This document shows, piece by piece, positions 52,715 through 53,481 of a stretch of DNA of 64,000 nucleotides. The notes under the pieces were generated by a model. The model searched no databases. It was given only the letters and a program-made list of their open reading frames with translations, and was not told the origin of the DNA. Position numbers and translations under genes: made by a program. Origin of the DNA: Bifidobacterium breve (GTDB taxonomy: Bacteria > Actinomycetota > Actinomycetes > Nanopelagicales > Nanopelagicaceae); the NCBI GenBank assembly GCA_945890205.1, contig CAMDCL010000002.1, positions 18,195 to 82,194 on the forward strand. The letters run 5' to 3'. Every line of letters starts with the position of its first letter. Position 1 is the first letter of the stretch.

Positions 52715-52741
52715 AAGCCCCTCCATGTGAGGGGCTTTTTT
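52715..52741 (+). terminator. rho-independent terminator after the DUF3040 gene
   Basis: AAGCCCCTC-CATGT-GAGGGGCTT followed by a T-run. It isolates the division cluster from the upstream gene. Confidence 0.9.
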
Positions 52742-52753
52742 CATGCCCGCATG

Positions 52754-52839
52754 GTGGGGGGAGATGTGGGCAACATGGTTGAAAAGGGCTAAAAGTGGGA
52801 AAAGGTGGTTGAAAAAGGGGAAAAGTGGAGTAAAGTGGG
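52754..52839 (+). promoter_or_regulatory. array of MraZ-box repeats with 10-base period
   Basis: GTGG(G/A) cores recur at 52754, 52766, 52795, 52805, 52825 and 52835, with degenerate copies (TGG or GGG) near 52775, 52785 and 52815, that is one per helical turn on the same face. The best units read AAAGTGGGG or AAAAGTGGA. MraZ of E. coli binds TGGGN repeats with 10-base spacing and mollicute MraZ binds AAAGTGG-type repeats. The array overlaps the predicted mraZ promoter, consistent with autoregulation. Confidence 0.8.
52809..52836 (+). promoter_or_regulatory. mraZ promoter (TTGAAA-16-TAAAGT)
   Basis: TTGAAA at 52809-52814 and TAAAGT at 52831-52836, spaced 16 bases. The start would lie near 52843, giving a leader of about 35 bases with a GGAAGGGGG ribosome site. 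The -10 lies inside an MraZ box. Confidence 0.6.
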
Positions 52840-52877
52840 GAATTAAGAGGGCAAACCTGGGGAAGGGGGCGCTGAAA

Positions 52878-53309
52878 ATGTTTCTAGGCACCCACGAGCC
52901 ACGTCTTGATGACAAAGGTCGATTAATCCTTCCCGCCAAATTCCGCGAAGAGTTAGCAGCAGGTTTAGTAATTACTAAAGGACAAGAACGTTGTCTTTAT
53001 GTTTTTCCATCAAATGAGTTTTCAGTAATTACAGAGACGCTAAAACAAGCGCCAGTCACTGCTAAATCAGCACGTGATTACAGCCGTGTGATGTTTGCTG
53101 GCGCACACGATGAAATTCCTGATCGTCAAGGTCGCGTAACAATTCCGCAATCACTTCGTACATATGCAGGATTAGAAAAAGAGTGCGTTGTTATTGGTGC
53201 AAACACTCGCGTTGAAATTTGGGACGCAACTTCTTGGAATGAATATTTGGCAGATCGTGAAAAGAGCTTCGCTGATGTTTCAGAGGAGGTCTTTCCAGGT
53301 TTGTTCTAA
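52878..53309 (+). CDS. mraZ: division/cell-wall cluster regulator MraZ
   Basis: 143 residues, the usual length, from the ATG at 52878 ([25 protein letters not shown]). Two AbrB-like swapped-hairpin repeats carry the DxxGR motifs: DDKGRLILP and DRQGRVTIP. It is a dodecameric DNA-binding repressor of its own operon in E. coli. A longer in-frame extension back to 52743 runs through the operator array and is rejected. The mraW-type RNA structure begins at its stop codon. Confidence 0.95.
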
Positions 53310-53413
53310 CTCTCATTTGTGGCCACTGCCGACCCTTCGAACGTAGCGACGCCCCTTCCCCGGCGCCGTTACAACACAAAGATCCGTCGGCCGGCAGTGA
53401 CCAGAGATGAGAG
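53310..53413 (+). ncRNA. mraW-type structured RNA leader between mraZ and rsmH
   Basis: A long-range stem pairs CTCTCAT (53310) with ATGAGAG (53407-53413), then GGCCACTGCC with GGCAGTGACC and GAC with GTC, enclosing a conserved-looking apical part with CCCCTTCCCCGGCGCC. Position and layout match the actinobacterial mraW RNA motif, a candidate cis-regulator of the cluster. It leaves 68 bases before the rsmH ATG. Confidence 0.8.
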
Positions 53414-53481
53414 TCGCAAGGAAAGACAGCGGTAAAGAAGTACACAACTTAAAACAATCAATCACAGGAAAAGGGGGAGAG

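Follow-up and report, generated by a model that had tools for sequence, protein, structure and literature searches.

Few bacterial regulators are as conserved as MraZ. It acts as a repressor in both E. coli and M. genitalium (PMC8475190). At the E. coli K-12 mraZ promoter (Pmra) three GTGGG boxes follow one another on the same strand with 10-bp spacing, downstream of the -10 (PMC7761207). PmraBc of B. cenocepacia carries four 7-nt repeats with 3-nt spacers, which lie 3' of the -10 and cover the start site, in a fragment that is bound by MraZ in vitro (PMC7761207), and the MraZ site of the Mollicutes, (AAAGTGKN3)3, has three core repeats (PMC5282649). For S. aureus, a G-quadruplex is reported from the region of the mraZ promoter (PMC11796246). 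Its motif lies 3' of the promoter and may overlap MraZ boxes.

Here we describe an array of boxes upstream of mraZ in a 64-kb stretch of actinobacterial DNA (the whole stretch analysed is referred to below as the window). The array resembles the E. coli site in its GTGGG boxes, their common strand, the 10-bp spacing and the position at the mraZ promoter, whilst differing from it in having eight or nine boxes that run from the -10 upstream to about -89. Its unit is also like that of B. cenocepacia, and equals the 10-bp unit of the Mollicutes, AAAGTGGNGN. On the strength of its sequence and setting the array is very probably an MraZ operator; the kind of operator is already known, and what is new is the length and placement of the array.

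Results

Setting of the array and the mraZ gene

The source of the window is a Planktophila-like actinobacterium of the Nanopelagicaceae, the assembly (1.27 Mb, 62 contigs) having Candidatus Planktophila among its closest named relatives in the genome collection. A polymerase-like ORF, a dinB-like gene and a SCO2097-family gene are followed by a terminator-like hairpin, the array and mraZ, and 3' of mraZ come an rsmH-like gene, an ftsL-sized ORF, a PBP-like ORF and a murE-like ligase gene (names of neighbours other than MraZ and SCO2097 come from reading the translations). The array thus sits at the mraZ promoter heading the dcw cluster. The intrinsic terminator-like hairpin (52715-52737, forward strand; 9-pair stem, T-rich tail), found by a scan, closes the upstream gene, and the array starts just 3' of it.

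The single mraZ copy in the assembly (52878-53309, forward strand, ATG at 52878) encodes a protein of 143 amino acids that scores 138.6 bits against TIGR00242 (cut-off 98.35) and matches the solved MraZ chains 1n0e, 9qlr, 9qlg and 9sx6. Two DxxxR repeats, D11-R15 and D82-R86, which we take to be the MraZ signature, are invariant across 14 aligned MraZ proteins. The AlphaFold model of this MraZ, with a mean pLDDT of 47 from a shallow alignment, was set aside. Translation of mraZ from further upstream, as an N-terminal extension through the array along the in-frame ORF 52743-53309, was considered and rejected since relatives begin MFLG and the lengths of their open frames differ.

Boxes and helical phase

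Nine GTGG-like boxes lie 5' of mraZ on the forward strand within about 85 bases (52754-52838), six of them GTGG and three degenerate, and all nine of those counted in an earlier sequence-only reading of the window could be located. Moving upstream, box 1 (GTGG, 52835-52838), the anchor of the array, overlaps the predicted -10 and is followed by box 2 (GTGG, 52825-52828), box 3 (AAGG, 52815-52818; ATGG or GTGG in some relatives) and box 4 (GTGG, 52805-52808), which abuts the -35 on its 5' side. Beyond these are box 5 (GTGG, 52795-52798; phase -40), box 6 (AGGG, 52785-52788; phase -50), box 7 (ATGG, 52775-52778; phase -60), box 8 (GTGG, 52766-52769; near phase -70), 9 bp from box 7, and box 9 (GTGG, 52754-52757), where the G run begins 12 bp from box 8. 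The exact helical periodicity proposed in that reading therefore holds for the seven boxes from 52775 to 52835 and breaks down at the outermost two, which are off the 10-bp register by 1-2 bp. The range named there also runs on to position 52877, and its last ~39 bases are leader and ribosome-binding site, with no boxes.

The score for seven boxes in phase was 9.5, compared with a mean of 4.9 and a maximum of 9.0 in dinucleotide shuffles, none of 20,000 of which matched it, and at periods of 7-9 and 11-13 phase scores were 3.5-6.0. Six in-phase GTGG pairs gave P = 0.001 whilst the GTGG count alone was marginal (P = 0.05), so that the signal is one of phasing rather than of G-richness. The array thus contains at least three boxes beyond chance, all in one orientation, with a GTG core (AAAGTGK / TGGG) and a 10-bp unit. 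The consensus box from relatives, AAAGTGGNGN, conserves the T at box position 2 and the A-rich spacers. Box and spacing are those of published MraZ sites, directly 5' of a genuine mraZ, which bears out the earlier assignment to an MraZ-type operator. No RNA family was found at the array.

Since the strand is G-rich, and by analogy with the S. aureus mraZ promoter (PMC11796246), the same letters could be read as a G-quadruplex, i.e. a nucleic-acid structure and not a protein operator. We regard this as extremely improbable: on inspection the conserved G tracts are only GG and stand 8 bases apart, which suits a quadruplex with its short loops poorly, the conserved T and A-rich spacers together with a fixed phase to the promoter hexamers speak against it, and boxes 3-7 were without structure in a single-strand DNA fold, albeit with a tool that does not model quadruplexes.

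Promoter and leader of mraZ

A consensus promoter scan placed a predicted -35 (TTGAAA, 52809-52814) and a predicted -10 (TAAAGT, 52831-52836) on the forward strand, confirming that the promoter TTGAAA-16-TAAAGT (52809-52836) is embedded in the array, in a fixed register to the boxes. The typical Actinomycetes mraZ promoter, TTGACN-16-TANNGT, is similar and has boxes in matching register at 0, -10 and -20, and the promoter hexamers keep this register in most of the Actinomycetes sampled. A TTG-type -35 at the register of the window was present at 49 of 55 non-Planktophila Nanopelagicaceae loci and 56 of 73 loci from other Actinomycetes, but at only 16 of 29 Planktophila loci.

Outside the phased array, GGGGAAGGGGG (52859-52869, forward strand) is the likely ribosome-binding site of mraZ, a region conserved among Planktophila leaders. 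In most of these leaders a small hairpin-like inverted repeat (e.g. GCGGGCACGAAAGTCCGC) comes right after the array; the leader of the window (52839-52877, 39 bases) is shorter and lacks that repeat when compared with the leader of another Planktophila locus (L004).

Conservation and extent in relatives

The comparison of mraZ upstream regions covered 16 Nanopelagicaceae genera with 84 loci, of which 29 belong to the genus of the window, and 78 anchored loci from a named genome collection, which come partly from the same genomes as the 84. Other Actinomycetes were represented by 73 anchored loci from 33 families, and the distant phylum sample by 26 anchored loci out of 54, the other 28 not being anchorable; beyond the phylum the comparison was limited to the literature and E. 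coli. Loci were anchored automatically on the GTGG overlapping the -10, which put a few of them (e.g. L227) out of place. Each genus had a single vote, and a GG counted as in phase if it was no more than one base off.

Non-conservation among relatives, which the sequence-only reading had named as counting against its own interpretation, was not what this comparison found. GG was in phase at 0, -10, -20, -30 and -40 in 16/16 Nanopelagicaceae genera and at -50, -60 and -70 in fractions of 0.81, 0.82 and 0.66, compared with 0.00-0.34 for the half-phase control. The array in this family reaches upstream to about -80. Other Actinomycetes families have invariant boxes at 0, -10 and -20, with a +10 box in 0.89 and a +20 box in 0.72 of families and fewer boxes upstream, usually amounting to four or five in total, centred on the promoter. 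The +10 box occurs in just 0.26 of Nanopelagicaceae genera which, taken with the phased upstream boxes, indicates that the array of this family was extended upstream and mostly lost 3' of the -10. It also follows that the three boxes of E. coli, although counted correctly in the earlier reading, are the wrong yardstick, since four or five are usual in other Actinomycetes.

How much longer the array has become depends on the count. By a loose chain count the means were 7.2 boxes in Planktophila (mode 8), 6.9 in the other genera, 5.2 in other Actinomycetes and 4.5 in the distant phylum sample, and the Planktophila chain was about three boxes shorter once upstream flanks were shuffled. When the count used a strict weight matrix that allows for local composition (G-richness), the corresponding values were 5.3, 5.1, 4.8 (class) and 4.2 (phylum). 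By the strict matrix the lengthening is therefore modest; it is real in phase and consists partly of weak boxes. Degenerate forms (AGGG, GGGG) make up the outer boxes, which differ between species, one genus (g17) and some others have five boxes only, and the best period for TGG spacing in Planktophila was 10.3 bp. Long arrays are not unique to the Nanopelagicaceae, since four other families (f18, f20, f26 and f28) also average more than six boxes by the loose count.

Specificity and probable growth by units

A spaced four-box pattern had one exact site within the window and was exact only at mraZ in 10 of 11 Planktophila genomes. Across these 11 genomes one-mismatch matches outside the array numbered 3, as against 2 for a reversed control, and a wider MraZ-box regulon was accordingly rejected, off-target matches being at control level.

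The window array contains a 30-bp internal repeat, GTTGAAAA occurring at 52778 and again at 52808. In a close relative (L219, a BACL15 MAG), in which MraZ is 99% identical and the mraZ gene agrees at 422/432 nt, the array is a net 10 bp shorter with one or two substitutions at the junction, and the two sequences are otherwise identical from terminator to ATG. This 10-bp difference (as assembled) together with the internal repeat points to growth by whole units, and the array has probably evolved by both gain and loss of 10-bp units. Among relatives in general, any preference of array indels for multiples of 10 is blurred by indels in the spacers and by misaligned repeats.

These features bear on whether the operator might consist of the promoter-proximal boxes 1-5 only (four or five boxes), the outer G-rich units being decaying, unbound products of slippage. 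The degenerate and variable outer boxes, strict weight-matrix counts near the class average, the genus with just five boxes and the net 10-bp indel between close relatives would all suit such a reading. Neutral decay ought, however, to lose phase, whereas GG stays in phase at -50, -60 and -70 at the frequencies given above, with 0.05-0.34 at the neighbouring half-phase positions, and we consider a restriction to boxes 1-5 rather unlikely.

Discussion

A long array is common to the Nanopelagicaceae, against four or five boxes in most actinobacteria, and what we see is therefore a known switch whose array has become longer and changed position. We think it likely that the array is the auto-operator of mraZ, the first gene of the division and cell-wall cluster, and that it has lengthened to eight or nine boxes from the four or five that are usual in actinobacteria. 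With one GTGG in every 10 bp, all facing one side of the helix, each unit would probably be contacted by a single subunit of an MraZ ring. Boxes 1-3 lie in the spacer between -35 and -10 and over the -10, and boxes 4-9 extend from the -35 upstream to about -89; with boxes lying across the promoter, bound MraZ would exclude RNA polymerase. The simplest mechanism would be that an MraZ ring, holding several boxes along the promoter at once, represses its own gene. The extra upstream boxes may give the ring additional contacts or room to slide between registers, and with them higher occupancy at a given MraZ level, and so would raise avidity. The sequence-only reading had proposed that a ring bound to many turns could make autoregulation of the cluster steep.

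The position of the outer boxes also lends itself to net activation, in which MraZ on the boxes 5' of the -35, phased on the helix, would aid RNA polymerase and boxes 1-3 would repress at high MraZ levels. Upstream of the -35 is the usual position of an activator, and the Nanopelagicaceae array, having left the surroundings of the start site, now lies there and keeps phase with the promoter. Boxes 1-3 nonetheless overlap the core promoter in every genome read, and MraZ represses in E. coli and M. genitalium (PMC8475190), which makes activation quite improbable. Autorepression remains our preferred reading, and within it the array length might be matched to ring size, eight boxes filling an MraZ octamer with the DNA wrapped round the ring. 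The eight-box mode and the period of ~10.3 bp are compatible with octamer wrapping and do not prove it, and we hold such a match to be unlikely; if true, octamer wrapping would put the division cluster of a streamlined freshwater bacterium under control that is close to switch-like.

Natural arrays with two to about nine in-phase boxes offer a series for how box number and position set repression, and their position slides with the lineage: 3' of the -10 in E. coli, over the promoter in most Actinomycetes, and upstream of the -35 in the Nanopelagicaceae. The window and its close relative, whose arrays differ in net length by 10 bp and at one or two substituted bases, come near to a natural experiment.

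A separate observation concerns the region between mraZ and rsmH, where the window (53304-53423) holds a divergent, full-length match to the mraW RNA (RF01746), which at 26.2 bits (E 0.0011) falls short of the gathering score of 50 and has a fold z-score of -5.5. The CUUCCCC loop of this RNA was seen 3' of mraZ at all Nanopelagicaceae and other Actinomycetes-class loci read, and is missing from nearly all loci outside the class. In the window the loop (53355-53361) is exactly complementary to GGGGAAG (52859-52865) in the Planktophila mraZ ribosome-binding region. Long-range pairing with the loop could possibly mask the mraZ start, or the complementarity may be a chance likeness to any purine-rich ribosome-binding site. 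Many relatives have GGGGAGG instead, which pairs with CUUCCCC via one G-U, the loop itself being invariant.
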